Assembly: GCA_017466345.1 (NCBI GenBank)
Contig: JAFTUI010000004.1
Span: 62,001 to 126,000 of the forward strand
Direction: 5' to 3'
Length of the DNA stretch: 64,000 nt
From: Tidjanibacter sp.
Lineage (GTDB): Bacteria > Bacteroidota > Bacteroidia > Bacteroidales > Rikenellaceae
Shown: piece after piece, positions 9,547 through 57,772 of the stretch
Numbering within the stretch: position 1 is the first letter of the stretch
How the letters are laid out: each line of letters begins with the position of its first letter
Translations under genes and position numbers: made by a program
Notes under the pieces: generated by a model
The model's input: only the letters and a program-made list of their open reading frames with translations
What the model was told of the DNA's origin: nothing
Database searches by the model: none

Positions 9547-11697
9547 ATGAAAACTTACCAAACTCAAAACCTCCGCAACGTGGCTATCGTTGGCGGCACG
9601 GGTAGCGGCAAGACCACTCTTGCCGAAGCATTCGCATTCGAAAGTAAACTCATCGACCGTAAAGGTACTGTTGAGGCAGGCAACACCCTCTCGGACAACA
9701 CCGAGTTGGAGCAGGCTCAGGGTAGAAGTCTTTATCCCGCAGTTATTTACACCGAGTTCGCAGGTCACAAATTCAACTTCATCGACACTCCCGGTGTGGA
9801 CGACCTCTGTGGTGGTGTATTTTCCGCATACAAGGTTTGCGACTTGGCAGCCCTCGTCATCAATGGCAACCAGGGCTTCGATGTTGGTAGCGAGATTCAC
9901 AGCCGCTACGCAGCACAGGCTAAGATGCCCGTTGTAGGTATCGTAAACCAGCTCGACAAAGAGAACGCTTCGTGGGACAAAGTTATCGACTCCATCAAAG
10001 GTAACTCGCCCATCAGCCCCGTAGTTGTTCAGTACCCCGTAAATCCCGGTCTTGGTTTTGACGCCATCATTGACGTTCTGACAATGAAGATGTACAAAGC
10101 AAAAGACGAGAACGGCAATCAGGAGGAGTTGGAGATTCCCGCTTCGGAGGCAGATCGTGCAGAGGAGTACCACAACGAACTCTTGGAGGCTGCTGCCATC
10201 AACGATGAGGCTCTGATGGAGAAATTCTTCGAGACCAACGACCTCTCGGCAGACGAGATTCGTCAGGGTTTGAGGGATGGCGTTGCTAACCGCGACTTTA
10301 TGCCCATCTTCTGCTGCTCGGCAAAGAAGAGCTTTGGTCTGAAACGTGTTATGGAGTTCATCATCAACGTGCTTCCCGATCCCTCGGCTGCAAATGCTAT
10401 GACCGATGTTGAGGGTAACGAGGTTAAGGCTGACGCTTCGGCTCCCACCTCCATCTTCGTATTCCGCAGTGCCGTTGAGCAGCACGTTGGCGAGGTTAGC
10501 TACTTCCGCGTAGTGACCGGTAAACTCACCGAGGGTATGGAGCTTACCAACCCCCGCAATGGCAACAAAGAGAAAATTTCGCAGATTTTCGCTGTTGCAG
10601 GCAAGAAACGCGAGAAAGTTACCGAACTCGTTGCCGGTGAGATTGGTTGCACCGTGAAACTCAAAGGCACCAAAGCAAACGACACTCTCGGTGTTGGTGA
10701 TGTTGCCGAGATTTCGCCCATCAACTTCCCCGCTCCCCGCTACCGCGCAGCAGTACGCGCTCTCGACCAGAACAACGAGGAGAAACTCGGCGAGATGCTC
10801 AACCGCATCAAACAGGAGGATTTGACCTACAAGGTGGAATACTCGAAAGAGCTCAAACAGACCATCGTACAGTGCCAGGGTGAGATGCACATCAACCTCT
10901 TGAAGACCATCATCCAGAACAACAAAATCGAGATTGAGTTCTTGGCTCCCAAGATTCCCTACCGCGAGACCATTACCAAAGTGGCTGCTGCAAACTACCG
11001 CCACCGCAAACAGTCGGGTGGTTCGGGACAGTTCGGCGAGGTTCATATGGTTGTTGAGCCCTACTATGAGGGTATGCCCGAGCCCAAACAGTACAAAGTT
11101 GACGGCAGGGAACTCCTTGTGAACATCAAAGGCAAAGAGGAGTTCGACCTCGAATGGGGTGGCAAACTCATCTACTACAACGCAATTGTTGGTGGTGCTA
11201 TTGATGCACGCTTTATGCCCGCTATCTTGAAGGGTATCAAAGATAAACTCAACGAAGGTCCTCTTACCGGTTCGTACGCTCGCGACATCCGCGTAGTTAT
11301 CTACGATGGTAAGATGCACCCCGTAGACTCCAACGAGATTTCGTTCGTTTTGGCTGCTCGCAACGCCTTCAAAGAGGCTTTCCGCAACGCAGGTCCTAAG
11401 ATTTTGGAGCCTATCTACAATGTAGAGATTTTGGTTCCCAGCGAGAATATGGGTGATATTATGAGTGACCTCAATGGTCGTCGTGCTCAGATTATGGGTA
11501 TGAACGCTGAGGGTGCATACAGTCGCCTTAACGCAAGGGTACCTCTGGCAGAACTCTACCGCTACTCGACTACCCTGAGCGCACTGACTCTTGGTCGCGC
11601 AAACTACACTATGGAGTTTGCTTCCTATGAGCAAGTGCCTGCCGATGTTCAGGATAAACTTCTTAAAGCATATCAGGAAGAAGAGAAAGACGAGTAA
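9547..11697 (+). CDS. EF-G2-type translation factor with altered GTPase motifs
   Basis: 716 residues, full EF-G length with all five domains; domain IV carries HRKQSGGSGQFGEV. The G-domain departs from canonical EF-G. The P-loop is GGTGSGKT (16-23). The switch I position expected to read RGITI is GRSLYPA (59-65). The G3 motif is DTPGVDD (80-86), so the His used by EF-G to activate water is Val84. G4 is NQLD (134-137) instead of NKxD. A Bacteroides paralogue of this class was shown to lack GTPase activity and to support growth in starvation and gut colonisation. A near-consensus box (TACCTTAG, 9487) precedes it. It is a paralogue of housekeeping fusA, not a replacement. Confidence 0.85.
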   Translation: MKTYQTQNLRNVAIVGGTGSGKTTLAEAFAFESKLIDRKGTVEAGNTLSDNTELEQAQGRSLYPAVIYTEFAGHKFNFIDTPGVDDLCGGVFSAYKVCDLAALVINGNQGFDVGSEIHSRYAAQAKMPVVGIVNQLDKENASWDKVIDSIKGNSPISPVVVQYPVNPGLGFDAIIDVLTMKMYKAKDENGNQEELEIPASEADRAEEYHNELLEAAAINDEALMEKFFETNDLSADEIRQGLRDGVANRDFMPIFCCSAKKSFGLKRVMEFIINVLPDPSAANAMTDVEGNEVKADASAPTSIFVFRSAVEQHVGEVSYFRVVTGKLTEGMELTNPRNGNKEKISQIFAVAGKKREKVTELVAGEIGCTVKLKGTKANDTLGVGDVAEISPINFPAPRYRAAVRALDQNNEEKLGEMLNRIKQEDLTYKVEYSKELKQTIVQCQGEMHINLLKTIIQNNKIEIEFLAPKIPYRETITKVAAANYRHRKQSGGSGQFGEVHMVVEPYYEGMPEPKQYKVDGRELLVNIKGKEEFDLEWGGKLIYYNAIVGGAIDARFMPAILKGIKDKLNEGPLTGSYARDIRVVIYDGKMHPVDSNEISFVLAARNAFKEAFRNAGPKILEPIYNVEILVPSENMGDIMSDLNGRRAQIMGMNAEGAYSRLNARVPLAELYRYSTTLSALTLGRANYTMEFASYEQVPADVQDKLLKAYQEEEKDE

Positions 11698-11822
11698 AAT
11701 CGCGCAAATATGCGGCGTCTTTGGCGTTGCACTGCGACAAACCCCTGCCTCATTTACGAAGAGTAAACTCGGCAGGGGTTTTCTTGTGCGCCTAAAATCC
11801 GCTAGCCTATTTGCGCGATTTA
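11695..11822 (+). terminator. 3'-end palindromic element, copy 1 (after EF-G2)
   Basis: Outer arms TAAAATCGCGCAAATA (starting at the stop codon) and TATTTGCGCGATTTA (11808-11822) pair. The inner stem AACCCCTGCC (11740-11749) pairs with GGCAGGGGTT (11771-11780), followed by TTTTCTTG. The loop holds CTCATTTACG and GAGTAAACT. Flanks GGCGTTGCACTGCGACAAA and CTTGTGCGCCTAAAATCCGC recur at copies 4 and 5. It probably terminates the EF-G2 transcript. Confidence 0.75.
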
Positions 11823-11834
11823 CCGCTTTGGGGT

Positions 11835-11965
11835 AAACTGCGGGGATAGATCTATTGCCCATAAGCCCTATATGCCCTATAAGGCATTATCGCCCACCCC
11901 AACCTCGTGGGTATTAAAAAAGATACCCGTGAAGCAACGCGGGGGGCACGAAGTAGTTGTATTGG
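11835..11965. repeat. mosaic intergenic repeat: CCTATAAGG units plus GGGTATT hairpin
   Basis: 11858-11890 holds GCCCATAAGCCCTATATGCC and CCTATAAGG-type units; 11909-11928 is the hairpin GGGTATTAAAAAAGATACCC followed by GTGAAGCAACG. The same order of modules recurs at 38590-38670, and the hairpin a third time at 38840-38859. No coding potential is evident. Confidence 0.65.
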
Positions 11966-12056
11966 AGGGGGGCTGGGAGCGGTCTTTAAGCCTTGTTGCG
12001 CGTGTGTTTCTTGTGGTACTTTCTTTGTGAATTATCTTTTTTTCAACATTTATTTG

Positions 12057-12064
12057 TATATTTG
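12057..12064 (+). promoter_or_regulatory. Bacteroidetes -7 promoter box TATATTTG
   Basis: Matches TAnnTTTG. The surrounding TTTATTTGTATATTTG is identical to the box at 18175-18182 in front of the second structured RNA, so both are probably true promoters of one RNA family. Confidence 0.65.
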
Positions 12065-12294
12065 TAGAAACAAACAAAAACCAATTTGCCGATAGAAAAA
12101 CAAAACTACTTACATATTTACTAATTAGCGTTTGCTATTTGTTCCAACTCTTGAAACGTAGGAAATTTCAAATTGATAACCGGAACGGATGTTGCGAATG
12201 CCCCGCTATGTGTGGGCATTCTTGTCTGTTATCACGGTTTCCTACGACCGCAAGGGTGGACAAGTTATGTCCACCTTTTTTGTTTGGTCGTAGG
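12065..12294 (+). ncRNA. structured leader RNA candidate, copy A
   Basis: Nested helices: P1 CGTAGGAAA (12157-12165) with TTTCCTACG (12238-12246); P2 GATAAC (12175-12180) with GTTATC (12228-12233); P3 GAATGCCC (12196-12203) with GGGCATTC (12214-12221). A terminator follows: GGTGGAC (12255-12261) with GTCCACC (12269-12275), then a T-run. CCTACGACC (12241-12249), which overlaps the 3' strand of P1, can instead pair with GGTCGTAGG (12286-12294), so two folds exclude each other. AAATTTCA sits between P1 and P2 as in copy B. It ends about 40 bases before the methyltransferase ATG. It could be an attenuator or an independent RNA. Confidence 0.55.
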
Positions 12295-12331
12295 ATTGAG
12301 CGGATTGCAGGCGCACAACACCCACAAGCCT

Positions 12332-13324
12332 ATGGCAAATGCAACTCTTACGGCAGCAAAAGCCGCCAAGAACGATGAGTTCTACACCCAAATGTCCGAT
12401 ATTGAGCGTGAACTTGCCAACTACGGACACCATTTTCGCGGTAAAACAGTGCTCTGCAACTGTGACGACCCGCGAGTAAGCAATTTCTTTAAGTATTTCA
12501 CACGCAACTTCGAGGTTCTTGGACTAAAAAAGGTCATTGCCACCTGCTACAAGAGTCAGGATGTAGACCTCTTCTCGGCTGGGACAAGCGAAAAGGCGGT
12601 CTATCAAATCTATGAGGGCGACCGAGATGGCAACTCAATGCCAGATGATGACGAGATAGAGGTGCGCCCTCTCAGGGGCGATGGCGATTTCCGCTCCCCC
12701 GAATGTGTAGAACTGCTCCGCCAAGCCGACATCATCGTCACTAACCCACCTTTTTCTCTCTTCCGCGAGTATGTGGCACAACTTGTTGCTTATCACAAAA
12801 AATTTCTAATCGTGGGGAATAAAAATGCGATTACATATAAAGAGGTTTTTCCCCTAATACAAGACAACCAAATCTGGATAGGAGTACAGCCTATGGGTGT
12901 TGATATGCTTTTTGACATTCCAGACGAGAGAGCAGAAGAACTCAAAGAGAATGAGGATGCAAAGGGAAGCAAGTATAGGTTAGTTGGCGGATTGGTTAAA
13001 GCACGCTCCTCGTCTATCTGGTTTACCAACCTCGACCATCACAAGCGACACGAGGAGTTGGTGTTGTACAAAAAGTACACCCCCGAAGAGTACCCTCGCT
13101 ATGATAACTACGCCGCAATCAATGTGAACAAAGTTACCGAAATACCCTATGATTATGAGGGTGTTATGGGTGTGCCCATCACTTTCCTCGACAAATACAA
13201 CCCAGAGCAATTCGAGATTGTGGGATTGATGGCATCAACAGGTGTAGATGATTACAACAAAGGGTATCCATATATTAATGGAGAGAAAAAATACGCCCGA
13301 ATTTTAGTTAAACTCAAAAAATAA
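12332..13324 (+). CDS. EcoRI-family adenine-specific DNA methyltransferase
   Basis: 330 residues from the ATG at 12332. The frame is open 53 codons further upstream, but that stretch is the structured RNA and its terminator, so the longer start is rejected. Motifs of the EcoRI methyltransferase family: KNDEFYTQ (about 13-20), NCDDPRVSNFF at the SAM site (about 43-53) and NPPF at the catalytic site (138-141) preceded by ADIIV. It transfers a methyl group from SAM to adenine N6 in a short DNA site; GAATTC is the paradigm but specificity cannot be read from sequence. It lies 8 bases before a DUF262-HNH gene, suggesting a modification-restriction pair. Confidence 0.85.
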   Translation: MANATLTAAKAAKNDEFYTQMSDIERELANYGHHFRGKTVLCNCDDPRVSNFFKYFTRNFEVLGLKKVIATCYKSQDVDLFSAGTSEKAVYQIYEGDRDGNSMPDDDEIEVRPLRGDGDFRSPECVELLRQADIIVTNPPFSLFREYVAQLVAYHKKFLIVGNKNAITYKEVFPLIQDNQIWIGVQPMGVDMLFDIPDERAEELKENEDAKGSKYRLVGGLVKARSSSIWFTNLDHHKRHEELVLYKKYTPEEYPRYDNYAAINVNKVTEIPYDYEGVMGVPITFLDKYNPEQFEIVGLMASTGVDDYNKGYPYINGEKKYARILVKLKK

Positions 13325-13332
13325 TAAACACA

Positions 13333-14433
13333 ATGAAAATCGAATTACACAAGATTACAATCAGAGAGTTGGTAGAGGGTTATCGCGACAACGATGAAGA
13401 GGGTGTTGTGGGCTACGGCGGCAGGCTCGACATCCGACCAAAATATCAGCGAGAGTTTGTCTATGATGACAAACAGCGCAATGCGGTAATAGAGACAGTG
13501 CGTCAGGGCTTTCCGCTCAATGTGATGTATTGGATGAAGAGAGAGGACGGTGGTTTTGAGGTGCTCGATGGGCAGCAACGTACTGTATCCATCTGCCGAT
13601 ATGTAGAGGGGCGCGGAGGTGGTATAGGGCGTTTCTCCATTGACGACCTCTACTTTCACAACCTTGACGAAACACAACAAAAGCAGATTTTGGACTACCC
13701 TCTGATGGTCTATTTTTGCGAGGGGGAGCCTGAGGAGAGGTTGAAATGGTTTGAGACAGTGAACATTGCGGGAGCCAAACTCACCCAGCAGGAGTTGCGC
13801 AATGCAACCTATTCGGGTAGTTGGGTGACCGATGCAAAGCGCTATTTTAGCAAAACAGGGTGCGCTGCCCACGGAATGGCAAAAGACTATATGAATGGCT
13901 CGCCCATACGACAAGACTATCTCGAAACAGCCATATGTTGGCTCTCGGAAGGTCACATCAACAACTATATGGGGCAGCATCAGCACGATGACTCGGCAAA
14001 TGAGTTGTGGCTTTACTTCAAAAGGGTAATAGATTGGGTTGAGGCAACATTCCCTGTTATGCGTAAAGAGATGAAAGGTGTGGAGTGGGGATGGCTCTAC
14101 AATCGCTACGGCTCACAAACCCGAAGCCCCAAAGAAATCGAAGCCGAAGTGTCGCGTCTTATGCAGGATGAGGATGTGTCAAACAAAAAGGGCATCTATA
14201 AATACATCTTCACACGCGAGGAGAAGTGGCTGAACATTAGGGAGTTTTCGGATAAAATGAAGCGAGAGGCGTATGAGCGTCAGCGTGGTTTTTGTGTGCG
14301 CTGTGGCGAACACTTCGAGTTGTCCAAAATGGAGGCAGACCACATTACGCCTTGGTGTGAAGGGGGTGCAACCTCTGCCGAAAATTGCCAAATGCTGTGC
14401 AGGAGTTGCAATAGGCGCAAGTCGTATAAGTGA
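13333..14433 (+). CDS. DUF262 (ParB-like NTPase) plus HNH endonuclease protein
   Basis: 366 residues. N-terminal DUF262: YQREFVYDDKQRNAVI (about 38-53) and the NTPase signature VLDGQQRT (77-84), as in GmrSD, BrxU and SspE. The middle is helical. The C-terminus (about 315-366) is an HNH/zinc-knuckle nuclease: CVRCGEHFEL, then ADHITPW, then NCQMLCRSCNRRKS. GmrSD carries DUF1524 instead; here a compact HNH is fused. It sits 8 bases behind an EcoRI-family methyltransferase, so I infer a nuclease restrained by, or sensing, the methylation of that partner. Alternatives: a type IV-like enzyme that attacks foreign modified DNA. The gene ends just before a bidirectional terminator. Confidence 0.8.
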   Translation: MKIELHKITIRELVEGYRDNDEEGVVGYGGRLDIRPKYQREFVYDDKQRNAVIETVRQGFPLNVMYWMKREDGGFEVLDGQQRTVSICRYVEGRGGGIGRFSIDDLYFHNLDETQQKQILDYPLMVYFCEGEPEERLKWFETVNIAGAKLTQQELRNATYSGSWVTDAKRYFSKTGCAAHGMAKDYMNGSPIRQDYLETAICWLSEGHINNYMGQHQHDDSANELWLYFKRVIDWVEATFPVMRKEMKGVEWGWLYNRYGSQTRSPKEIEAEVSRLMQDEDVSNKKGIYKYIFTREEKWLNIREFSDKMKREAYERQRGFCVRCGEHFELSKMEADHITPWCEGGATSAENCQMLCRSCNRRKSYK

Positions 14434-14446
14434 TATCAAAAACACA

Positions 14447-14473
14447 AAAGGAGCACCACATTGGTGCTCCTTT
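14447..14473. terminator. bidirectional terminator between DUF262-HNH and ppa
   Basis: Perfect 12-bp stem AAAGGAGCACCA with TGGTGCTCCTTT around a 3-base loop, between two convergent genes. Confidence 0.85.
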
Positions 14474-14497
14474 GGCTTAAACCACATAACAACGCAT

Positions 14498-15121
14498 CTA
14501 CTCCTCTTGGCTCTCGACAAGGCGTTTGTAGTCGTCCATAGAACGCTTGATAACCTCGCGTGCCACATCGGGACCATAGATGCTAACAAATTTCATCCTC
14601 TGGGTGTTCTCGCCGGGGATGTCCTTATAGGTCGTGAAGTAGTGGATGAGTCGCCTTACGATGCGTGTGGGCAACTGTTCGATGTCGGTCATATCGCCAT
14701 AGATGGCATCGTTTTTCAGCACAGCAATAATTTTGTCGTCCGCCTGATTGTGGTCGAGCAACCTCAAACCACCAATGGGGCGTGCCGAAACCAAAATATC
14801 GCCGTGGGTAACGTCCTTCTCCGTGAGGACACAAATATCCAGAGGGTCGCCATCGCCCTCCACATCAAACCTCGCAAGAGCCTTATTTGTGAGTTCTGCC
14901 ATATTGGTGGCGCAGTAGGTGCGAGGGATGAAACCGTAGAGCGAGGGTACGATGTTGGAGAATTTCTGTGGGCGGTCGAGGGCGAGGTAGCCGCTTGCTT
15001 TGTCCACCTCATATTTTACGGTGTCGGTAGGCACAATCTCAATAAATGCTCTAATCTCCTCGGGCGTTCCGGGGTCAATGCCGTGCCACGGATGGGCTTT
15101 GTGTAGTGTGCTGAAATCCAT
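14498..15121 (-). CDS. ppa: inorganic pyrophosphatase (family I)
   Basis: 207 residues. Hydrolyses PPi to two phosphates in the cytosol with Mg, pulling biosynthetic reactions forward. The metal site EGDGDPLDICVL (DxDPxD) is intact, preceded by YGFIPRTYC and followed by GDILVSARPIGGLRLLDHNQADDKI. It is a single-gene unit converging on the DUF262-HNH gene. The start ATG at 15121 gives a standard N-terminus (MDFSTLHKAHPWHGI). Confidence 0.93.
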   Translation of the reverse strand: MDFSTLHKAHPWHGIDPGTPEEIRAFIEIVPTDTVKYEVDKASGYLALDRPQKFSNIVPSLYGFIPRTYCATNMAELTNKALARFDVEGDGDPLDICVLTEKDVTHGDILVSARPIGGLRLLDHNQADDKIIAVLKNDAIYGDMTDIEQLPTRIVRRLIHYFTTYKDIPGENTQRMKFVSIYGPDVAREVIKRSMDDYKRLVESQEE

Positions 15122-15404
15122 AATTATCTCGTTTTTGTTGGTTCGGTCTTAGGTGCCCAAGGGCGCGAAAAGCCCTTCGGTAACCACAAAGATACAATTT
15201 TGAATTGAAAGTTGAAAGTTGCGAGTTGAAATTTTGCAAAAAATACCCCGCAAAAGCCTTGTGCTATGGTATGGGGCGGTAGAGATACTTGTTTTTCTTG
15301 TCGCTTGTGTTGTTCGCTTTGCTTTTGGGGTAGACCAGATTACCTCGCTACGAGCCACACGCGGTGGCTCTTCGCTCGGTGATCGTAGGTTGTGGGGTGG
15401 CTGT

Positions 15405-15824: not shown

Positions 15825-15847
15825 TGGCGTATTATAATAGGTAAGAT

Positions 15848-24305: not shown

Positions 24306-25967
24306 ATGCTGCGAGAGAACTTAATTAGAATTTATGAGCAGAGTTTTCGCGACAATCGCGAACTCCCTGCCTTGACCGACTATTTCAAGAAAGAGACCTT
24401 TTCGTACTACGAGATGGCAAAGGAGATTGCAAAACTCCATATGCTCTTCGAGGAGTGCGGCATCCAAAAGGGCGACAAAATAGCCCTCATTGGTCGTAAC
24501 AACCCCCGATGGGTTATCACCTACGTTGCGACCATCACATACGGTGCAGTGATTGTCCCCATTTTGCAGGACTTCAACCCCAACGACATCAACCACATCA
24601 TCAACCACTCCGAGTCGAAACTCCTCTTCTTGGGCGATGCCTTTTGGGATGTTATTGAGGAGGACCGAGTGCCCGCCATTAAGGCTGTCTTCTCGCTTAC
24701 CGACTTCCGCTGTATCTTCGAGCGCGAGGGCGAGGATATTTCCACATTCCAGAAGAATATCGTCAAGCACTACCGCGCACGCTATCCTCGCGGCTTCTCT
24801 GCCGATGATATTAAATACCCCGAGGTGGGCAACGATGAGGTCTGCTTGCTGAGCTACACAAGTGGCTCTACGGGTTTCAGCAAGGGTGTAATGCTTACCA
24901 TAAACAACCTCACTGCTCAACTTGTCTACGTTCTGCCTAAGAAATACCACTTCCGTGGCTCGCGAGTATTGTGCTTCCTGCCTTTGGCTCACGCCTTTGG
25001 TGCGGCAATTGATATGCTCAGCTCGCTTGGTGCAGGTACGCACATCACCCTCTTGGGTAGAATACCCTCGCCCAAAATCCTCATTGAGGCTATGGCAGAG
25101 GTACGCCCCCACGTCATCTGCTCGGTGCCTATGATTATCGAGAAGGTGGTCAAAAAACAGATATTCCCCATTCTGGGTAGCGGTCTGATGAAAACCGCCC
25201 TCTCCATTCCTCTGATTGACAATGTGGTATATGCACAAATCCGCAAGAAACTTGTGGCAACCCTCGGTGGCGAATTCTACGAATTTATTGTGGGTGGTGC
25301 GGCACTCAACGCCGATGTTGAGGAGTTCCTCCACCGCATCAAATTCCCCATCACAGTGGGCTACGGTATGACCGAGTGCGGACCCCTCATCAGCCACCGA
25401 CTCTACACTGATGGTTACATACCAACCTCGGCAGGTAGGATTATTACCGAATTTTGCGAGTGCCGTGTGCTCTCGCCCGACCCCGCACACATCCCCGGCG
25501 AGATCCTCATTCGTGGCGAGCAGGTTATGAAGGGATACTACAAAAATCCCGAGGCTACGGCTCAGGCTATTGACGAGGAGGGCTGGCTCCATACAGGCGA
25601 TATGGGTACCATAGACGCCGACCACAACATCTTCCTCAGGGGTCGTAGCAAGACTATGATTCTTATGAGCGGAGGTCAGAACGTCTATCCCGAGGAGATT
25701 GAGGCTAAACTCAACAACCTTGCCTACGTTTTGGAGAGCCTTGTTGTTGAGCGTGACGGCAAACTTGTGGCACTTGTGGTGCCCGACTACGAGCAGTTGG
25801 ATGCTGCGGGCATCCCCCACTCGCAGTTGCAGGAACTTATGAACGAAACCCTCAAAGAACTCAACACTCTCGTTGCAAGTTACGAGAAGGTGGCGCAGAT
25901 TGAGTTGCGTCCCACCGAGTTCGAGAAGACGCCCAAGAAGTCTATCAAACGCTTCCTCTACCGATAG
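24306..25967 (+). CDS. long-chain fatty acid-CoA ligase (AMP-binding)
   Basis: 553 residues from the ATG at 24306 (MLRENLIRIYEQSF); an upstream in-frame start at 24231 adds an unlikely extension. ANL-superfamily motifs: LLSYTSGSTGFSKGVMLT (P-loop-like), GYGMTECGPLIS, GWLHTGDMGTIDADHNIFLRGR, and a C-terminal Lys in KTPKKSIKRFLY. Activates fatty acids to acyl-AMP and then acyl-CoA. No transmembrane segments. A palindromic 3'-end element begins a few bases after its stop. Exact chain-length preference cannot be told. Confidence 0.87.
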   Translation: MLRENLIRIYEQSFRDNRELPALTDYFKKETFSYYEMAKEIAKLHMLFEECGIQKGDKIALIGRNNPRWVITYVATITYGAVIVPILQDFNPNDINHIINHSESKLLFLGDAFWDVIEEDRVPAIKAVFSLTDFRCIFEREGEDISTFQKNIVKHYRARYPRGFSADDIKYPEVGNDEVCLLSYTSGSTGFSKGVMLTINNLTAQLVYVLPKKYHFRGSRVLCFLPLAHAFGAAIDMLSSLGAGTHITLLGRIPSPKILIEAMAEVRPHVICSVPMIIEKVVKKQIFPILGSGLMKTALSIPLIDNVVYAQIRKKLVATLGGEFYEFIVGGAALNADVEEFLHRIKFPITVGYGMTECGPLISHRLYTDGYIPTSAGRIITEFCECRVLSPDPAHIPGEILIRGEQVMKGYYKNPEATAQAIDEEGWLHTGDMGTIDADHNIFLRGRSKTMILMSGGQNVYPEEIEAKLNNLAYVLESLVVERDGKLVALVVPDYEQLDAAGIPHSQLQELMNETLKELNTLVASYEKVAQIELRPTEFEKTPKKSIKRFLYR

Positions 25968-25981
25968 CACATCTTGTTGGT

Positions 25982-26068
25982 GATTTTTGCACCAAACATC
26001 AAGTGGCGACCTTCCTCATTTGCGCTTAGCAAACTGCGGAGGTCGCCCTTTCGTTTGGCACAAAAATC
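25982..26068 (+). terminator. 3'-end palindromic element, copy 2 (after acyl-CoA ligase)
   Basis: Outer arms GATTTTTGCACCAAAC (25982-25997) and GTTTGGCACAAAAATC (26053-26068); inner stem GGCGACC (26005-26011) with GGTCGCC (26041-26047). The loop carries TTCCTCATTTGCG and GCAAACTGCGGA, shared with copy 3 and, with small changes, copies 1 and 6. Confidence 0.72.
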
Positions 26069-26155
26069 CCTCAACAATCTGCACTATCGGGGGGTGGTGG
26101 TAATTACAGGGGTAACAGGGATCGCAAGGATCGCAGGGGACCAATCTCCTATCAT

Positions 26156-26203
26156 CCTTGTAACCCTTGTAACCCTTGTGACCCTTGTAACCCTTGTAAC
26201 CCC
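26156..26203. repeat. 9-bp tandem repeat CCTTGTAAC x5
   Basis: Five units of CCTTGTAAC, one with a G, then a degenerate CCCTGCAA. A related run built on CCCTGTTAC lies at about 38765-38815. An upstream G-rich mirror (26108-26140) could base-pair weakly with it. Confidence 0.75.
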
Positions 26204-26205
26204 TG

Positions 26206-32196: not shown

Positions 32197-32199
<3 letters not shown>

Positions 32200-32323
32200 A
32201 AAACGCATATAACGCGCGTCTGCTGCGTTATACTTCGATAAGCGGCTTCCTCATTTGCGCTAAGCAAACTGCGGAGCCGCTTTCTCGTATGCCTTGCATC
32301 CATCACGTTATCTGCGTTTTTTT
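32197..32323 (+). terminator. 3'-end palindromic element, copy 3 (after eno)
   Basis: Outer arms AAAAACGCATATAACG (from the stop) and CGTTATCTGCGTTTTTT (32306-); inner stem AAGCGGCT (32240-32247) with AGCCGCTT (32275-32282). Blocks CGCGTCTGCTGCGTTATAC, TTCGATAAGCGG and TCTCGTATGCCTTGCATCCA recur nearly unchanged, inverted, in copy 6 behind frr. Confidence 0.8.
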
Positions 32324-32384
32324 GGTCGGGAGAAATCTCAGCACAGAGGAGGCGTTCCGCCTCCTTAGATTTTTTTGCGCTTGC

Positions 32385-32520
32385 GGTATTCGGCAGGGGT
32401 TTTCTTGTGCGCCCAAAACCGCTCCTTCTTTGGGCACAAAATTTTCTCCGTTATCTGTGTTTTTTTGTCTAAGGCTTATAGGGCTTATATGCCCTATAAG
32501 GCTTATATGCCTTAGGACTA
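32385..32520. repeat. remnants of the palindromic element and CCTATAAGG units
   Basis: GGCAGGGGTTTTCTTGTGCG (32393-32412) matches the right half of copy 1 but lacks its left half. 32467-32520 holds AAGGCTTATAGGGCTTATAT and CCTATAAGG units like those at 11858 and 38590. No gene is visible in 32200-32666. Confidence 0.6.
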
Positions 32521-32549: not shown

Positions 32550-32675
32550 GAAGAGTAGTAAATAAGCGAGCGGATTTTAGGCGCACAAGAAAACGACCTC
32601 CGCGCATAGTTGCCTATGTAAGGAGGTCGTTTATCGCAGTGCAACGCCAAAGGCGCCGCTTATTTGCTACTCTTC
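32550..32675 (-). terminator. 3'-end palindromic element, copy 4 (after rpsU)
   Basis: GAAGAGTAGTAAATAAGCG (32550-32568) mirrors CGCTTATTTGCTACTCTTC (32657-32675) with one mismatch; the right arm includes the last rpsU codons and stop. Inner stem AAACGACCTCC (32591-32601) with GGAGGTCGTTT (32622-32632). On the minus strand the flanks read GGCGTTGCACTGCGATAAA and CTTGTGCGCCTAAAATCCGC, as in copy 1. Confidence 0.78.
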
Positions 32676-36293: not shown

Positions 36294-38423
36294 ATGAGAG
36301 CACAATTTACAGATATTAAGTTTGCCGGCGCAACCGAGGGTTGCTGCCAGAGCAAGTGCGCTGCCCCCGAGAAAGAGTGGATGACTGCTGAGCAGATTCC
36401 CGTCAAAGGTCTTTACAGCGCAGAGGATTTGGAGGGTATGGAGCACCTGAACTATGCAGCAGGTGTGGCTCCTTTCCTTCGTGGTCCTTATAGCACAATG
36501 TACGTTATGCGCCCCTGGACCATCCGCCAGTATGCAGGTTTTTCGACAGCAGAGGAGAGTAACGCCTTCTACCGCCGTAACCTCGCTTCGGGTCAGAAAG
36601 GTCTGTCGGTAGCATTCGACTTGGCTACTCACCGTGGCTACGATGCCGACCACCCCAGGGTTGTTGGTGACGTAGGTAAGGCAGGTGTAAGTATCTGCTC
36701 GGTTGAGGATATGAAGGTGCTGTTCGATGGTATTCCATTGAACCAGATGTCGGTTTCGATGACTATGAACGGTGCTGTACTTCCCGTATTGGCATTCTAT
36801 ATCGTTGCAGGTTTGGAGCAGGGTTGCACCCTCGACCAACTCGCTGGTACCATCCAGAACGACATCTTGAAAGAGTTTATGGTGCGTAACACCTACATCT
36901 ACCCACCAGAATTCTCGATGCGTATTATTGCCGACATCTTTGAGTACACCTCGAAGAATATGCCCAAATTCAACTCGATTTCTATCTCGGGTTACCATAT
37001 GCAGGAGGCAGGTGCTACCGCCGACATCGAGTTGGCATACACCTTGGCTGACGGCTTGGAGTACCTCCGCGCAGGTGTGAATGCAGGTATGAGCATCGAC
37101 CAGTTTGCTCCCCGTCTGTCGTTCTTCTGGGCTGTTGGTATGAACCACTTTATGGAGATTGCCAAGATGAGGGCTGCACGTCTGTTGTGGGCTAAAATTG
37201 TTAAACAGTTCAACCCCAAGAACCCCAAATCGCTCGCATTGCGTACCCACTGCCAGACTTCGGGTTGGTCGCTTACCGAGCAGGATCCTTTCAACAACGT
37301 AGGTCGTACAGCTATCGAGGCTATGGGTGCTGCTCTGGGTCACACTCAGTCGCTCCACACCAACGCACTCGATGAGGCTATCGCACTGCCTACCGACTTC
37401 TCGGCTCGTATTGCTCGTAACACCCAGATCTACATCCAGGAGGAGACCAACGTATGCCGCTCGGTTGACCCCTGGGCAGGTTCGTACTATGTTGAGAGCC
37501 TCACCAACGAGATTGCTCACAAGGCTTGGGAGCACATCCAGGAGATTGAGAAACTTGGCGGTATGGCTAAGGCTATCGAGACCGGTATTCCTAAGATGCG
37601 TATCGAGGAGGCTTCGGCTCGTAAACAGGCTTGGATCGACTCTGGCGATGAGGTTATCGTGGGTCTGAACCGCTACCGTTTGGAGAAAGAGGCTCCCATC
37701 GACATCCTCGCTGTGGACAACACCGCAGTACGCGAGAGCCAGGTTAAACGCCTCCAAGAGTTGCGTGCAAACCGTGACGAGGCTGCCGTACAGAAAGCTC
37801 TGGCTGCCATCACCGAGGCTGTTAAGACCAAGACCGGCAACCTCTTGGAACTCGCTGTTGAGGCTGCGAAAGTTCGCGCTTCGTTGGGCGAGATTTCCGA
37901 TGCTTGCGAGGTTGTTGTAGGTCGCTACAAAGCAGTTATTCGTTCAATCTCTGGTGTATATTCGAGTGCTATGAAGAATGATGCAGATTTCGCCAAGGCG
38001 AAAGAGATGGTTGATGAGTTCGCAAAACGCGAGGGTCGTCAGCCCCGTATTATGATCGCAAAACTTGGTCAGGACGGTCACGACCGTGGTGCAAAAGTTG
38101 TTGCTACCGGTTACGCCGACCTCGGCTTTGACGTGGATATGGGTCCCTTGTTCCAGACTCCCGAGGAGGCTGCAAAACAGGCTGTCGAGAATGACGTACA
38201 CGTTGTAGGTGTATCCTCGCTTGCAGCGGGTCACTTGACTCTCGTTCCTCAGATCATCGCAGAGTTGAAGAAACTCGGCAGGGAGGACATCGTTGTTGTT
38301 GTGGGTGGTGTTATTCCCGCACAGGACTACGATGAACTCTACCGCGATGGTGCAGCAGCAATCTTTGGTCCTGGTACCCCTGTGGCTACTGCGGCTATCA
38401 AGATGCTCGAAATTTTGGCATAA
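36294..38423 (+). CDS. mutB: methylmalonyl-CoA mutase large catalytic subunit
   Basis: 709 residues. TIM barrel with [32 protein letters not shown] and [16 protein letters not shown]. The C-terminal B12-binding domain has [11 protein letters not shown] (DxHxxG, lower cobalt ligand) and [18 protein letters not shown]. Adenosylcobalamin-dependent isomerisation of succinyl-CoA and methylmalonyl-CoA. Corrinoid capture genes lie at the left end of the window. Ends in a palindromic 3' element. Confidence 0.95.
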
Positions 38424-38530
38424 ACGCCCATTGCACAGCAACTGCTGTGTTGCACTGCGACAAATCCCCTCCTCATTTACCTCGTGTAAATTGAGGAGGG
38501 GATTTTCTTCTTGCGCCTAAAACACGCTTG
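38424..38530 (+). terminator. 3'-end palindromic element, copy 5 (after mutB)
   Basis: Inner stem AATCCCCTCC (38463-38472) with GGAGGGGATT (38495-38504), extended by CTCATTTAC with GTAAATTGAG, then TTTTC. Flanks GTTGCACTGCGACAAA and TTGCGCCTAAAACACGC match copies 1 and 4. Outer arms are not clear in this copy; GCACAGCA-ACTGCTGTGT (38434-) forms a small extra hairpin. Confidence 0.72.
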
Positions 38531-38574
38531 CTTCCCTGCTCGGCGGGGACGCTGAGCAGGGAGGGTGCTGCGCA

Positions 38575-38870
38575 GCAGTGGGAGAGGTCTGTCGCCCATA
38601 AGCCCTATAAGCCTTATAAGCCCCATAAGCCCTATACGAACTTGGGTATTAAAAAAGATACCCGCGAAGAAAGGGATCGACCTTTATCTTATAGAGTGGT
38701 AGATGCCAACCGCCTCAACTCCGTTGAGTCGTGGCAAGACGGAGTTTGGCAACTCCTATTTTCCCTGTCACTCCTGCAACCCCTGTTACCCCTGTTATCC
38801 CTGCAAGAAAAACAGGAGAAGCAAGCCCCAAAACCTCACGGGTATTAAAAAAGATACCTGCGCCCAAAAA
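38575..38870. repeat. mosaic intergenic repeats (CCTATAAGG units, two GGGTATT hairpins, CCCTGTTAC units)
   Basis: 38590-38637: ATAAGCCCTATAAGCC-type units. 38644-38663: GGGTATTAAAAAAGATACCC. 38765-38815: CCTGCAACCCCTGTTACCCC-type 9-mers. 38840-38859: a second hairpin with a final T. After it comes an A-run and a G-run (38863-38880). The rest of 38424-39011 holds no gene. Confidence 0.68.
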
Positions 38871-53900: not shown

Positions 53901-54240
53901 ACTGGGGCTTAGTGGCGGTCTGCTGTGGCTTTACAGTGTCGTTGCCCTCCAAGACGATATTGCCGTCTATGATGGAGCAGGTGATGTTCCTGCCCTCGAA
54001 AATCTTTTCGAGAGTTGCCAAAACATCCTCTCCATTGGCATTGACAGTAACCTTGCGCGAGGTATCTACTGTTTTGTCGCTGTAAAAGAATTTGTAGCCG
54101 CTCTGGCTCTCGATGTTGGCGAAGACCTCCCCAAGTGGAGCATTCTTCATCCTCAGAGTTATGTTGCGCGTTTGGGCGTAGCCCTCCGACAACACAAGCG
54201 AGCATACAAGACACAGAATAAATAGTCTGATGTGCTTCAT
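50992..54240 (-). CDS. susC: SusC/RagA TonB-linked outer-membrane transporter with STN domain
   Basis: 1082 residues. Signal peptide, STN domain (about 24-75: MKNAPLGEVFANIESQSGYKF), carboxypeptidase-like beta-sandwich (about 118-190: GYVVDKAGDPVIGATIISLG), plug (VVGYGTQRRSDVTGAIASVS; ILIRGRRSLSGDNAPLYIVDG) and a C-terminal barrel ending RTVLFGVNVTF. Imports glycan fragments across the outer membrane. The STN domain marks it as a signal-sending receptor that works with the FecR protein and ECF sigma factor encoded next to it. Confidence 0.94.
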   Translation of the reverse strand: MKHIRLFILCLVCSLVLSEGYAQTRNITLRMKNAPLGEVFANIESQSGYKFFYSDKTVDTSRKVTVNANGEDVLATLEKIFEGRNITCSIIDGNIVLEGNDTVKPQQTATKPQSKHFVGYVVDKAGDPVIGATIISLGNMANATIADANGRFEIAASAGEKLEISCIGYTTQTITAGKSEAKIVLKDDFQMLEEVIVVGYGTQRRSDVTGAIASVSSEKLNTTPTTSLGEMLRGAAAGVHVSLGSAEPGGSSSILIRGRRSLSGDNAPLYIVDGVPMSSIDDINSNDIESMEILKDASSQSIYGARAANGVILITTKRGQEGQLRVSYSGYAAIQDINRNFEFYNGEEFAAYRKEAYWNAYGGDFNTMPTKDYLGGLMEEVYLSGEWVDWEKLMIHKALQQKHDVLVQSGNDKTKYAFGIGAYSQNGMVLNSGFEKLSGRLNIDHKLTKNISLGANLSYSRAWKESADGSFNTFVTMPPLAKVYEDDGVTLRMDVTEAGESHYNPLWNINNSESLSQTDRLLMNLFADWKIAKGLSYRLNASLNQRQVDSGSYLGLEHTTGTNTQGKATISQSNYFDYLLENILNYSTKIGDDHKIDATLMQSVNYITWKSIGISGTGFANDDLSFHAIGSAVEHGVPSYQFSERKMLSSLARVRYNYKDRYLLTAAVRLDGSSVFGASNKWGVFPSASFAWRASEEEFMQNAEWVSNLKLRASIGQVGNQGISPYTTLGLADKYMYEFGSTPVVGYLPDTQLPNPKLKWETSTSTNIGLDFGIFDGRIGGTVEFYNTDTTDLLVAKSLSQSTGYKSQLVNMGRVNNRGIEVTLNLVPVKTRDLEWTVDITFAKNKNEIVRIDGSLDEKGQPKNDVNNNWFIGEPMNVYYDYAFDGIWQLEDDITSSHMPDAQPGAVRVKDANGDGELDDTDRVIMYRDPDWIGALSTGFYYKGFDLSAELYVSAGGTRYNSYLTAFNQGGDLTGKRNGVRRNYWTPVNPSNEAPAPNMTQAPAYITALGYQDASFVRLRNVQIGYNFPKSVTKALSMQSLRLYATLTNIWTLTDVIGYGPEQNPGSYPEPRTVLFGVNVTF

Positions 54241-54323
54241 AAATTTAAGTGATTATTAGGATTAGTTTATTTATAATTATTTGATTTCTCCTCAAAAATA
54301 GGATTTGGGCTGGGTGGCGAAGA

Positions 54324-55325
54324 TTAGTAGATCTCTATCAACTCGTAGCCACTAAGGTTGCCCCCTTCGCCCCTCTCGATGGTCCTGAAACGCATATTGG
54401 ACGAGCGTTTGAAGTGTTCGAGGATGATGTCGAGCCTCTGGTCGGTGAACATACCCGTGAAGTTGTGCTCGTAGAACTTGGGGTTCTTTACCGTAAACTC
54501 CACATTGAAGCGGTTTTCGATCATACGCAGTGCCTCCGCAAGGGGTGTCTTGTCGAAAATGATGCGCCCGTCCTTCCACGATGCGGCATCGGCAGCATTT
54601 ACCCTGCGGATATTCCAATCCATCGATGCGGGATCTATCGTAACCCTCTGACCGGGGTGCACCTCCACATAGTGCTCCCTATTGTCGTTGCCATCGAAGG
54701 TCATATTGATGCTGCCGCTAATGAGTGTGGTGCGCACATCGCGACCGCTACGATCGTAGGCATCCACGTTGAACTCGGTGCCCGTAACCTCAATCTCCAT
54801 AACATCGGTCTCGACCACAAAACGCTTTTGGTCGTCTTTGGCAACCCTGAAATAGCCCTCGCCAACGAGTTTTACACGCCTTTCGCCCTCGAAACGGATG
54901 GGGTATTTGAGGTAGGAGTTGGAGTTGAGCCACACCTTGCTACTGTCGGGCAGTGTGACGGTTGATACCATACCCGATGTGGTCTTCATCTCCACATACT
55001 GCATAGCCTCCTGGGTAGGAGCCACTTCGCGCATAGCCCAAAAAGCCACCGCCGCAACGGGCAAAAACAACACAGCCGCCACCTGAACGATGCGGTTCCA
55101 AATCACACGTCTGCGCGAGGCAGCAATGCGACCACGGACTTTGCGGAGTGCAGACTTGGTGTCCACGCTCTGCATTGTGTGTAGTGTGGAGGTTGCGTAG
55201 TGGAGCCAATAGAGTTGCTCGGCAAGTTTGCGATTCTCCTCAGAGGAGTTAATCCACGCCTCCACCTCGGCAATCTCGTGCTCTGGGAGGGTGTTGTCGA
55301 AATAACAGAAAAGTTTGGTTTCCAT
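54324..55325 (-). CDS. FecR-type anti-sigma regulator
   Basis: 333 residues. Cytosolic N-terminus with an anti-sigma helix region (EVEAWINSSEENRKLAEQLYWL), one membrane helix (about 78-100: VQVAAVLFLPVAAVAFWAM), periplasmic FecR domain (MVSTVTLPDSSKVWLNSNSYLKYP; GEGYFRVAKDDQKRFVVET; VEVTGTEFNVDAY) and a C-terminal STN-binding part. Holds the ECF sigma factor until SusC reports its ligand. 83 bases upstream of susC; divergent from the sigma gene. Confidence 0.92.
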   Translation of the reverse strand: METKLFCYFDNTLPEHEIAEVEAWINSSEENRKLAEQLYWLHYATSTLHTMQSVDTKSALRKVRGRIAASRRRVIWNRIVQVAAVLFLPVAAVAFWAMREVAPTQEAMQYVEMKTTSGMVSTVTLPDSSKVWLNSNSYLKYPIRFEGERRVKLVGEGYFRVAKDDQKRFVVETDVMEIEVTGTEFNVDAYDRSGRDVRTTLISGSINMTFDGNDNREHYVEVHPGQRVTIDPASMDWNIRRVNAADAASWKDGRIIFDKTPLAEALRMIENRFNVEFTVKNPKFYEHNFTGMFTDQRLDIILEHFKRSSNMRFRTIERGEGGNLSGYELIEIY

Positions 55326-55441
55326 ATAGTGATACCTAATAATTATTACCTATTTTTATTATTAAGACCACCCAACTACATTTTTCCCTAAACGAAAACA
55401 AAGTTTTCTGTTAGAATTTGCATTTAACTAAAAAAGATTCG

Positions 55442-55449
55442 TACTTTTG
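55442..55449 (+). promoter_or_regulatory. -7 promoter box TACTTTTG for the ECF sigma gene
   Basis: Matches TAnnTTTG, 20 bases before the ATG at 55470, in the 144-base divergent region between fecR and the sigma gene. Confidence 0.58.
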
Positions 55450-55469
55450 TAATAAGTAGTGAACTCACA

Positions 55470-56057
55470 ATGGCAAATCAAGTGGCAACAGACCACCAAC
55501 TATGCCAAAGATTGATTGGTGGAGATAAAAGGGCGTATGAACTTCTCTTTGAGAGGTTCTATCCCGAATTGTGTGCCTATGCAAACCAATGGGTAGAGCT
55601 CGAAGATGCCGAAAATGTGGTGCAGGATATTATGCTGTGGCTGTGGCAAAACCACCAAGAACTGCATATCGAAACCTCCCTGCGCACCTACCTCTTCGCT
55701 GCGACCAAAAACCGATGCCTCACACTCATCAATAGAGGTCAGATGCGACAGCGCATTATGAGTAGCCTCCACAAGGTTATGGAGGAGCAGTTTGAGGCCC
55801 CCGACTTCTACATTCTTGGCGACCTTGTGACCAAACTCGAAGAGGCTCTCGATGAACTGCCAGAGAGCTACCGAGAGGCGTTTGTTCAGCACCGCTTCAA
55901 CAATAAGAGTTATAAGGATTTGGCCACCGAAATGGGCGTGTCGCAGAAGACCATTGAGTACCGCATTTCGCAGGCCATAAGGCTCCTGCGTGTGAGTCTG
56001 AAAGACTACCTGCCGCTGCTCATTCTGCTCTTTGGCGACCCCAGCACTTGGGACTAA
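55470..56057 (+). CDS. ECF RNA polymerase sigma factor (SusC/FecR-linked)
   Basis: 195 residues. Sigma-2 region with LLFERFYPELCAYANQWVEL and DAENVVQDIMLWLWQN (about 26-63); sigma-4 region with ELPESYREAFVQHRFNNKSY and DLATEMGVSQKTIEYRISQA (helix-turn-helix, about 130-170). Bacteroides-type ECF factor that directs transcription of the adjacent SusCD locus when released by FecR. Divergent placement from fecR, rather than the usual sigma-fecR-susC order, means the two are separately promoted. Confidence 0.9.
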   Translation: MANQVATDHQLCQRLIGGDKRAYELLFERFYPELCAYANQWVELEDAENVVQDIMLWLWQNHQELHIETSLRTYLFAATKNRCLTLINRGQMRQRIMSSLHKVMEEQFEAPDFYILGDLVTKLEEALDELPESYREAFVQHRFNNKSYKDLATEMGVSQKTIEYRISQAIRLLRVSLKDYLPLLILLFGDPSTWD

Positions 56058-56118
56058 TCCACTCCTTCTGTGCGGACGCAAAAGCGACTCTCGGAGTGAA
56101 GGTCTCGACCATTTTTTG

Positions 56119-56126
56119 TATTTTTG
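56119..56126 (+). promoter_or_regulatory. -7 promoter box TATTTTTG for cdaA
   Basis: Matches TAnnTTTG, 66 bases before the cdaA ATG. Confidence 0.55.
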
Positions 56127-56192
56127 TGGCACTACACGCAGGTGGTGGTGCGTTTATAAAAAGTGTATACACTATAACAACTTAGGCATACT

Positions 56193-57053
56193 ATGGGTTT
56201 TATTAAGATGACGCTCTTCGATGTGGTCGATATTTTGATGGTGGCAATCATTATGTACTACATCTACAAGCTTATACGAGGTACTCAGGCAACAAGCATC
56301 CTGGCGGGTATCTTGGTTATATATGTTGCGTGGATTGTGGCTCGTGCCTTCAATATGGAGCTGATGTCGGGCATTTTGGGCTCGGTGGTCAGCGTGGGAC
56401 TTATTGCGCTTATCATCATCTTCCAGAGCGAGATACGCAAATTCCTCCAAACACTCGGCTCGCGTAGCCAGCAGACAGGACCCTTGGCGGTAATCTACAA
56501 ACTCCTCAGCCCCGCAAAGAGCAAGCACGAGAATATAGACAATGTCATCGATCCCATTGTCAGCGCGTGTGGCAGTATGAGCGCATCCCTCACGGGTGCA
56601 CTGATTGTCATCAAGCAGGATGGCTCGTTGGATGATATTATTGCTACGGGCGTGGAGATAGACGCCAACATAGACCCCTCGCTAATCAAAAACATCTTCT
56701 TCAAAAACTCGCCTCTGCACGATGGCGCAATGGTTGTGGGTGGAGGTAGGATTGTGGCGGCCAAGTGTGTGCTGCCCTCCACGAAGAGCGAGGTGCCACT
56801 CTCGTTTGGAATGCGCCATAGGGCTGCTATGGGTTTGTGCGAAGAGAGTGACGCCATTGTGGTTGTTGTGAGCGAGGAGACGGGTGCTATCTCGGTGGCT
56901 CAGAATGGCAAGATAAGGCGAGGTCTGAGCGAGACGGAGCTCAAAGCCGAACTGATGAGGCTTGCGCAAGGTAACCGACAGCAGGAGAAAAACGAGGGGG
57001 AGAACCAGCCCTCGTGGCTCACAAAATTCTTCAAACCAACCGACAAGAAATAG
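56193..57053 (+). CDS. cdaA: diadenylate cyclase CdaA (membrane-bound)
   Basis: 286 residues. Three membrane helices (about 8-24, 36-52, 62-77) then the DAC/DisA_N domain with SPLHDGAMVV (DGA at 177-179) and FGMRHRAAMG (RHR at 208-210), both needed to make cyclic di-AMP from two ATP. The usual regulator CdaR is not adjacent. A lipoprotein gene starts on the base after the stop (TAGATG), so translation is probably coupled. Confidence 0.93.
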   Translation: MGFIKMTLFDVVDILMVAIIMYYIYKLIRGTQATSILAGILVIYVAWIVARAFNMELMSGILGSVVSVGLIALIIIFQSEIRKFLQTLGSRSQQTGPLAVIYKLLSPAKSKHENIDNVIDPIVSACGSMSASLTGALIVIKQDGSLDDIIATGVEIDANIDPSLIKNIFFKNSPLHDGAMVVGGGRIVAAKCVLPSTKSEVPLSFGMRHRAAMGLCEESDAIVVVVSEETGAISVAQNGKIRRGLSETELKAELMRLAQGNRQQEKNEGENQPSWLTKFFKPTDKK

Positions 57054-57617
57054 ATGAAGATAAAACGTGTCGTGAGGCTTTTTGCCTTGTTATTTGCAAC
57101 CGTAGGATTGTGGTCGTGCGATAGTCTGCTGGGCGAAGAGGAGAGTGGTAGTGGGCTTTCGAGCCTTACTAAGGATGCAGAGTTTGTGGCAACGAGCGTT
57201 GTTGCCCAACACCACCCCGATAGCAGCGTAAATAACGAGCCACGCGAGAATTTCCTCTTGGAGTTTGTGGGTGCTGAGCAGGCGGGTGTGTGCGATGTGC
57301 TGATACTCGATTTGCTGGCTCCCGATGGGGCGGAGAGCCTTGTGGGCGAATATGTTGTGGGATATGAGGGCGACTTTGTTGCCCTTTCGAGATATGATAG
57401 CAAAGATCCCAATACGGGCTTGCTCTACTCAGACGGAAGCCTCTATGCCGAGGCTAAGAATGGCTACCTTACAGACTACTTCGGCTACCTTACCAAAGGC
57501 ACCATAACCATCCAACAACTCGAAGATGGCACCTACAATGTCGCAGTGGATGCCAAGAGTGTCTACCACACAATAAAGATGACCTATACGGGGAAGATTG
57601 AGCTAAGAGTTTTCTAA
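57054..57617 (+). CDS. hypothetical lipoprotein coupled to cdaA
   Basis: 187 residues with lipobox Cys22 (FATVGLWSC). Mature part is small and beta-rich (FLLEFVGAEQAGVCDVLILDLL; GSLYAEAKNGYLTDYFGYLTKGT; GTYNVAVDAKSVYHTIKMTYTG) with the style of a calycin- or lipocalin-like fold; I do not recognise the family. It begins immediately after the cdaA stop. The link to c-di-AMP, for example envelope stress reporting, is only inference. Confidence 0.6.
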   Translation: MKIKRVVRLFALLFATVGLWSCDSLLGEEESGSGLSSLTKDAEFVATSVVAQHHPDSSVNNEPRENFLLEFVGAEQAGVCDVLILDLLAPDGAESLVGEYVVGYEGDFVALSRYDSKDPNTGLLYSDGSLYAEAKNGYLTDYFGYLTKGTITIQQLEDGTYNVAVDAKSVYHTIKMTYTGKIELRVF

Positions 57618-57646
57618 GAACTCTTACAAGGAGTTTCCCAAGCGGT

Positions 57647-57772
57647 AAAAACGCAGATAAAGCGATGGATGCAAGGCATACGAGAAAGCGGAGTCCGCAG
57701 TTTACTCTTCGTAAATGAGGAACTCCGCTTATCGAAGTATAACGCCGCAGACGCGCGTTAGATGCGTTTTTA
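57647..57772 (-). terminator. 3'-end palindromic element, copy 6 (after frr)
   Basis: TAAAAACGCAGATAA on the left mirrors TTAGATGCGTTTTTA on the right, which contains the frr stop. Inner stem AAGCGGAGT (57686-57694) with ACTCCGCTT (57722-57730); loop with GCAGTTTAC and GTAAATGAGGA. On the minus strand it is nearly identical to copy 3 outside the inner stem. Confidence 0.8.

Follow-up and report, generated by a model that had tools for sequence, protein, structure and literature searches.

What are the six long palindromes that directly follow the stop codons of six genes in a window of 64,000 nucleotides (nt) from Tidjanibacter sp. (Bacteroidales, Rikenellaceae; assembly GCA_017466345.1, contig JAFTUI010000004.1, positions 62,001 to 126,000): transcription terminators, a functional RNA family or mobile DNA? 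The initial annotation of this window, which is the whole stretch that was analysed, had placed all six elements on the strand of the gene that they follow, as reading of the window sequence bears out, and had thought of a family of the 3′-untranslated region (3′-UTR) that is either mobile or a recognised terminator or stabiliser. The answer that we consider rather probable is that the elements are old, non-autonomous palindromic insertions resembling miniature inverted-repeat transposable elements (MITEs), with a conserved central hairpin and exchangeable arms, which have been retained at stop codons in this genus. The copies of the genus have apparently been co-opted there and kept as RNA hairpins of the 3′-end.

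The window elements are nested palindromes of approximately 115–130 nt, the left outer arm of which starts at the stop codon or, after rpsU, just before it. The central hairpin module by which the superfamily is defined consists of GCGTTA, a variable stem arm, the apex CTCATTTRC-N5-GYAAACTGCGG, the complementary arm and GCCTTG, in this order. All family counts come from apex-pattern searches and scripts. It should be noted that the pattern fixes most apex bases and that the conservation of these bases is therefore ascertained; unfixed are the free or half-free positions R8-Y16 and C23 and the flanks GCGTTA and GCCTTG. In the own genome (G000, 1.82 Mb) 117 core matches with at most two mismatches were found (39 forward, 78 reverse) and none with the reversed control pattern, which makes this a dispersed family, as had been surmised; BLAST with the copy behind the EF-G2-like gene gave 37 matches in the same genome. 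The stretches of G000 that were fetched for closer analysis hold 109 matches to a similar pattern, not paired one by one with the 117. A scan of the window with the covariance models of Rfam 15 returned two tRNAs at gathering scores and nothing else, and a permissive Rfam search of the eno-rpsU region returned weak matches far below gathering scores. The full-text literature searched (titles and abstract starts among the matches listed; no preprints, few subscription papers) gave no account of the family. One contig of the own genome, C27, repeats the element matches of the end of contig C19 at a constant offset, which suggests assembly redundancy or a second strain. C27 was left out of the pairing, target-duplication and orphan-half analyses and of recounts, and one fetched C27 copy is included in the counts of orientation and spacing, neighbours, stop codons and arm extensions.

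Position and orientation relative to genes are far from random in the own genome. Genes were called with a home-made ab initio codon-score script trained on the window, and one copy without an upstream gene was dropped, which leaves 108 copies. The strand is that of the upstream gene in 101 of them (mean 72.8 and maximum 87 in 2,000 random placements in the intergenic space of the fetched blocks), in agreement with the fixed orientation proposed from the six window copies, and the core starts 46–54 nt after the stop codon in 64 (mean 1.4, maximum 6 in 2,000 placements). Without C27 the figures are 100/107 and 63/107. Seventeen further same-strand copies lie 76–400 nt from the stop, many of them as second or third copies in tandem. 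For 98 copies a gene was called on either side; divergent gene pairs contain none of these copies, and six sit in reverse orientation between co-oriented genes. The stop codons themselves are biased: in a comparison based on the longest open reading frames (ORFs), the genes followed by an element end with TAA in 48, TAG in 30 and TGA in 2 cases (n = 80) and the other genes in 70, 49 and 20 cases (n = 139), TGA thus being rarer at element genes (2/80 versus 20/139; Fisher p = 0.004). In 42 of 72 copies the first paired base of the arms lies in the stop codon or directly behind it. The palindrome most often begins at the native stop; the C-termini of orthologous proteins agree within a few residues. 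This does not mean that the outer arms always copy the end of the host gene, a possibility raised in the initial annotation. An extension of the pairing by at least 4 nt into the coding sequence is found in 19/72 copies, a weak excess over shuffled arms (mean 10.25, maximum 15), and arms as gene-end copies are clear for rpsU and for one further copy (C10:27685), the right arm of which pairs with eight coding bases.

The palindromes are maintained as paired structures. For the pairing analysis copies too near block ends were dropped, and 107 distinct copies remained. At one apical position, 57 of these have an A-T pair, 50 have a G-C pair and none has a broken pair (shuffled mean 80.3, maximum 88), and a T-C mismatch, at a position left free by the search, is kept in 102. 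The pairs of the inner stem, when tested ungapped, gave mixed results, which we attribute to subfamilies being shifted in register relative to one another. For the outer arms the mean score is 20.1 with the arm's own partner and 12.0 with the arms of other copies (n = 63), a preference that is partly subfamily structure. Arms that prefer their own partner are what terminal inverted repeats lead one to expect, and ends could indeed be located in two other hosts (Anaerophaga and the metagenome-assembled genome (MAG) GMC8, see below).

Could the elements be ordinary intrinsic terminators whose similarity is incidental? Like these, they have a strong hairpin behind the stop codon and are accompanied by T-rich tracts. 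The conserved apex and flanks recur, however, in other phyla, the nested arms are very long (approximately 120 nt), tandem and truncated copies exist, and the family shows signs of mobility; the explanation, which had been set aside from the start, is thus highly improbable. The elements may nevertheless have taken the place of terminators. When canonical terminators were sought with a simple script on sequence alone, one was found in the 125 nt after the element at 9 of 76 element genes, as compared with 33 of 69 other genes with room, for which the 125 nt behind the stop were searched (p = 3 × 10⁻⁶). At 22/76 element genes the script placed a site in the first 125 nt, a stretch that largely coincides with the element. 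The deficit after the elements fits the view that the element has replaced the terminator. At several loci of Alistipes and Bacteroidaceae, a terminator-like hairpin still follows directly after the element, as judged by eye.

Comparison of orthologous stop codons within the genus reveals both insertion polymorphism and rewriting. The eno gene was located in 20 of 24 genomes, and its end was read in 16: an element stands exactly at the TAA in G000 and G005, and none is present at the stop in the other 14. The two eno elements have the same outer arm and different interiors. For ten element genes the orthologs were located in nine congeners and the gene ends were read; by eye, an element is present in 0/8 cases for glyA, 1/8 for gcvP, 8/8 for secA (one degenerate) and 6/8 for fusA2 (one degenerate). 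The script, which relies on a core of fixed length, flagged fewer because many congener loops differ in length. The interiors of G013 and G018 differ from each other at the fusA2 stop and at the secA stop and are the same at infB. In addition, 12 orphan right halves, which begin at the hairpin loop, were classed by eye in the fetched stretches of G000, 11 of them 58–112 nt downstream of a full copy; there was no clear intergenic orphan left half in these stretches, and one left-half match at the edge of a stretch was left unclassed. Taken together, orphan right halves and shared outer arms around different interiors point to a rewriting that would have the loop as its centre and the gene side as its anchor. 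Breakage by SbcCD was considered as the cause of the orphan halves: none of the 24 congeners gave an SbcD match over the cut-off, which only 8 of 14 control genomes pass, and 13 of the 24 gave weak matches below it. A loop-centred break or strand switch is kept as an explanation.

The same data bear on the proposal of a stop-codon-directed mobile element, the insertion of which would be actively aimed at the end of translation (e.g., at the TA in stops) and coupled to the ribosome or to RNA. The narrow spacing, the intact native C-termini and the rarity of TGA are in its favour, as are insertions present in few congeners (glyA, gcvP, asnS, eno) at or within about 10 nt of stops. On the other hand, in other hosts the insertions are at non-stop sites ending in TA. 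A shared reverse transcriptase was rejected as driver: PF00078 matches occur in only 4/24 congeners, all of them element-bearing, and are of at least two kinds, 12 bearing genomes lack a match, and the four loci contain neither an element core nor an Rfam match. Aiming at stop codons is for these reasons regarded as quite unlikely. One of the loci, L326 (G000:C14:118193-118777), encodes a reverse transcriptase of approximately 530 amino acids with a YADD motif that looks retron-like by eye; its stretch is free of the core.

Outside the own genome the distribution is patchy. With at most one mismatch, the apex is found in 16/24 genomes of the genus (own included) and in 0/17 other genomes of the family and order. 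In a draw of 247 Bacteroidota genomes, G000 alone holds multiple copies. Three further genomes gave a single one-mismatch match each, approximately what the reversed-pattern control yields (2 matches). The exact core is present in at least 113 stretches of GTDB genomes, which, among the matches listed, belong by their record titles to other gut Bacteroidales, Anaerophaga, Cytophagales and Flavobacteriales MAGs and Zeta-, Beta- and Gammaproteobacteria. Eighteen of these genomes hold 2–473 matches (controls 0), with many copies in scattered Bacteroidota and few in some Proteobacteria. Of 106 copies with an upstream ORF among the matches listed, 74 are on its strand and 33 lie 44–58 nt after its stop. 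The flanks, which the search had left free, recur as well: among 21 representatives, GCGTTA is found in 18 and GCCTTG in 16 (shuffled means 3.5 and 3.8, maxima 9 and 9). One copy was taken per group from 23 groups chosen by hand; two groups have no full flank, which leaves the 21, and two of these 21 are nearly identical. Carriage by phages or plasmids was rejected, since BLAST with the eno copy found nothing in plasmids or phages and the viral contig collection contains no exact core.

The hosts with many copies provide the evidence for mobility. In Anaerophaga thermohalophila (473 matches with at most two mismatches) the copies are short and dispersed, as are the 117 of the own genome and as is characteristic of MITEs, and those fetched look alike. 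Only 15 of 39 are on the strand of the upstream gene, four copies without an upstream gene having been dropped. The hairpin lies inside a unit of approximately 163 bp with the left end GTGTCTGTCCATAAA and the right end TTTATAGACACGCACT. Both ends could be located in 36 distinct copies, and in 24 of them a perfect direct repeat of 5 bp flanks this unit (shuffled mean 4.8, maximum 12, figures that are high because most repeats end in TA). The unit of MAG GMC8 has 124 bp and ends (GGCATTTTTCATAAATGC) that are unrelated to those of Anaerophaga, and an exact 8-bp repeat is found in 12/20 copies (shuffled mean 0.54, maximum 3). GMC8 also contains a core-less MITE of 247 bp (L140, minus-strand offset 3289) with the same left end and a flanking 8-bp direct repeat, and end sequences without the core occur in other fetched loci, too. 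With different ends and duplications of 5 and 8 bp in the two hosts, one conserved centre is thus set in at least two different MITE frames. These duplications and the presence or absence at orthologous stops, as at eno, argue for mobility, one of the two options initially put forward. In a Cytophagales MAG a 5-bp repeat was found in 2/4 copies, too few to rely on. Locus L092 of the Cytophagales MAG SS36425bin_5 has at offsets 1291 (−) and 2490 (+) the outer arms of the element alone, in the form of a short core-less hairpin, which suggests that the core was lost or that it was captured by a pre-existing hairpin.

Dispersed palindromes with a conserved mismatch and a bulge bring to mind REP-like sequences mobilised by a RAYT or another Y1 transposase, and Y1_Tnp matches are indeed found in 11 of 16 other element-bearing genomes tested. 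The remaining five have none, the duplications are 5 and 8 bp, and PF01797 is absent from all 16 bearing draft genomes of the genus (the own genome and 15 congeners), so that a RAYT is not supported as driver there; the sole congener with PF01797 (G007) has no element match. The units, of about 120 nt and in fixed orientation, differ from REPs as well. We regard this explanation as very improbable.

A functional RNA family, namely a recognised terminator or 3′-end stabiliser spread by horizontal transfer and by recombination together with genes, would dispense with a transposable element altogether. Such a family could account for the fixed strand and stop spacing in the own genome, for the covariation and the nearly invariant mismatch, for the lack of exact cores in viral contigs and for the copies that adjoin homologues of ftsZ, lptF, M17 peptidase and panC in other bacteria (ten proteins scanned). 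It is less easily reconciled with the scarcity of multicopy genomes among the Bacteroidota, with the insertion polymorphism, and with target duplications and lost anchoring in other hosts, and is therefore considered unlikely.

For the preferred reading, MITE-like insertions retained at stop codons, the following course of events can be envisaged. The original insertion would have occurred next to TA, whereby a TAA or TAG stop would be kept or rebuilt and TGA would become rare. Copies between the stop and the native terminator would have been retained because the RNA forms a strong 3′-UTR hairpin, which might take over termination or 3′-end protection, and the native terminator could then decay. 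Copies would subsequently be rewritten in place by hairpin-associated repair or strand switching. This would leave the stop-codon outer arm as it is and account for new interiors, for orphan right halves and for copies in tandem.

Several observations weigh against this reading. When terminators are counted up to 330 nt, those inside the element included, the difference between element genes (33/76) and other genes (41/69) is no longer clear (p = 0.07). In the 62 anchored copies of the own genome there is no target-duplication signal (no excess over permutation). No transposase was identified, and no autonomous transposon was seen near the end sequences in L360, the ORFs of which were inspected by eye, or in L140, the ORFs of which were counted. 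Nor did the analysis, which for this question covered SbcD in 24 congeners, yield an enzyme, be it a nuclease or a recombinase, that could carry out the rewriting. An anchoring precision of 1–2 nt may also be more than selection and TA targeting can achieve. Finally, just 2 of the 39 Anaerophaga copies lie 49 nt after a stop. Because the Anaerophaga copies are not stop-anchored, anchoring is a property of some lineages and not of the core itself. The initial annotation had named a lack of further copies, random orientation and position relative to stop codons, and a lack of covariation as outcomes that would speak against it; none of these was seen in the own genome, and the copies of Anaerophaga do lack the stop anchoring. 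It is also possible, although we hold it to be doubtful, that the hairpin of approximately 90 nt is itself the moving or selected unit, which would be recognised as folded DNA or RNA and captured by unrelated MITEs in different phyla. In the genus it would then be a shared 3′-end device at the stop codons of many genes, the interiors of which are exchanged at the loop, while the stop arm stays.

How do MITE-like insertions with these properties compare with known systems? Integron attC sites are imperfect palindromes directly after the stop codon and in fixed orientation. The present elements resemble them in both respects by eye; they conserve the centre rather than outer boxes, and several of the genes that they follow are housekeeping genes. 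With MITEs such as ERIC/IRU, Correia/NEMIS and RUP, the family has in common that it is short, has inverted ends and many copies and, in two hosts, target duplications. MITEs are grouped by their ends, whereas in the present family the centre is conserved and the ends vary between hosts. De Gregorio reportedly described in 2006 that YPAL inserts close to stop codons. Judging from the passages of the sources that deal with them, small mobile palindromic sequences, YPAL/RU-2 of Yersinia above all, are the nearest known kind (PMC2229807; PMC2759123). In these passages YPAL/RU-2 is a miniature insertion judged to be mobile, with target duplications of 3–26 bp, is transcribed with upstream genes (“co-translated” in the review) and may affect transcript stability, and terminal inverted repeats are emphasised in the grouping of MITEs (PMC2229807). 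The likeness, by description and not by sequence, concerns size, mobility and target duplications. The family differs in that the duplications are 5 or 8 bp in its other hosts, in that the core spans phyla, and in its exchangeable ends and a stop spacing within 1–2 nt. We conclude that the family is a MITE-like palindromic superfamily, conserved at the centre and with ends that can be replaced; in one genus it has apparently been co-opted at stop codons. If true, mobile DNA would have become the ends of genes throughout a genome, and a transposable-element family would be conserved between phyla at its centre and not at its ends. Two questions become testable: does action as a 3′-UTR hairpin explain why small palindromic elements persist, and can stop codons be the target of insertion? 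The family also offers a natural system for how long palindromes are copied and rewritten in genomes.

Table 1. Elements, remnants and an adjoining hairpin in the window (positions in the 64,000-nt stretch).
Feature	Position	Strand	Remarks
Element after EF-G2-like gene	11695..11822	+	starts at TAA stop; core apex 11749-11773
Orphan right half (GTAAACTGCGG) just downstream of full EF-G2 copy	11832..11849	+	one of 12 remnants in the fetched G000 stretches
Element after acyl-CoA ligase-like gene	25965..26089	+	starts at TAG stop; core 26015-26039
Element after eno	32197..32323	+	starts at TAA stop; core 32250-32274
Terminator-like hairpin with T run, downstream of eno element	32346..32376	+	by eye
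Right-side remnant of another copy	32391..32422	+	97% like EF-G2 copy over 29 nt; repeat family D19
Element after rpsU	32550..32675	−	left arm holds last coding bases and TAG stop; apex 32600-32622 not the family core
Element after mutB	38421..38536	+	starts at TAA stop; core 38472-38496; right end approximate
Element after frr	57646..57772	−	starts at TAA stop; core 57695-57719

The six window copies (Table 1) illustrate how far individual members can deviate. Of the start positions given in the initial annotation, those after EF-G2, eno and rpsU agree with Table 1, and the acyl-CoA ligase copy begins at its stop codon and not at 25982. The loop, described there as conserved, is at consensus in the acyl-CoA ligase, eno and frr copies, modified in the EF-G2 and mutB copies, and absent from the rpsU copy, which has a different apical hairpin within the same flanks. 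The claim that the arms vary and stay self-complementary is borne out by the covariation, mutB being an exception in that its outer arms no longer pair; the mutB ortholog in G014 has intact arms. An arm containing the end of the gene had been claimed for rpsU and frr. It is real for rpsU, where pairing clearly enters the coding sequence; in frr, as in eno, it starts only within the stop codon. Pairing enters the coding sequence by four bases in the copy behind the acyl-CoA ligase gene, and an extension by nine bases in the EF-G2 copy rests on a gapped alignment made by script.

Other repeats were noticed around the copies. A recurrent linker like ACCGCTTnGGGnA often separates full copies of G000 from the orphan right halves that follow, and many copies have a further hairpin motif, GCGTCAYTCTGACGC, on their downstream side (both by eye). 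Another dispersed palindrome (D16), a hairpin with the sequence GGGTATTAAAAAAGATACCYG, is present three times in the window (11892-11931, 38627-38666 and 38823-38862), and nine-base tandem repeats like CCTTGTAAC / CCCTGTTAC (D5) are found in intergenic regions after elements (26147-26205 and 38763-38803).

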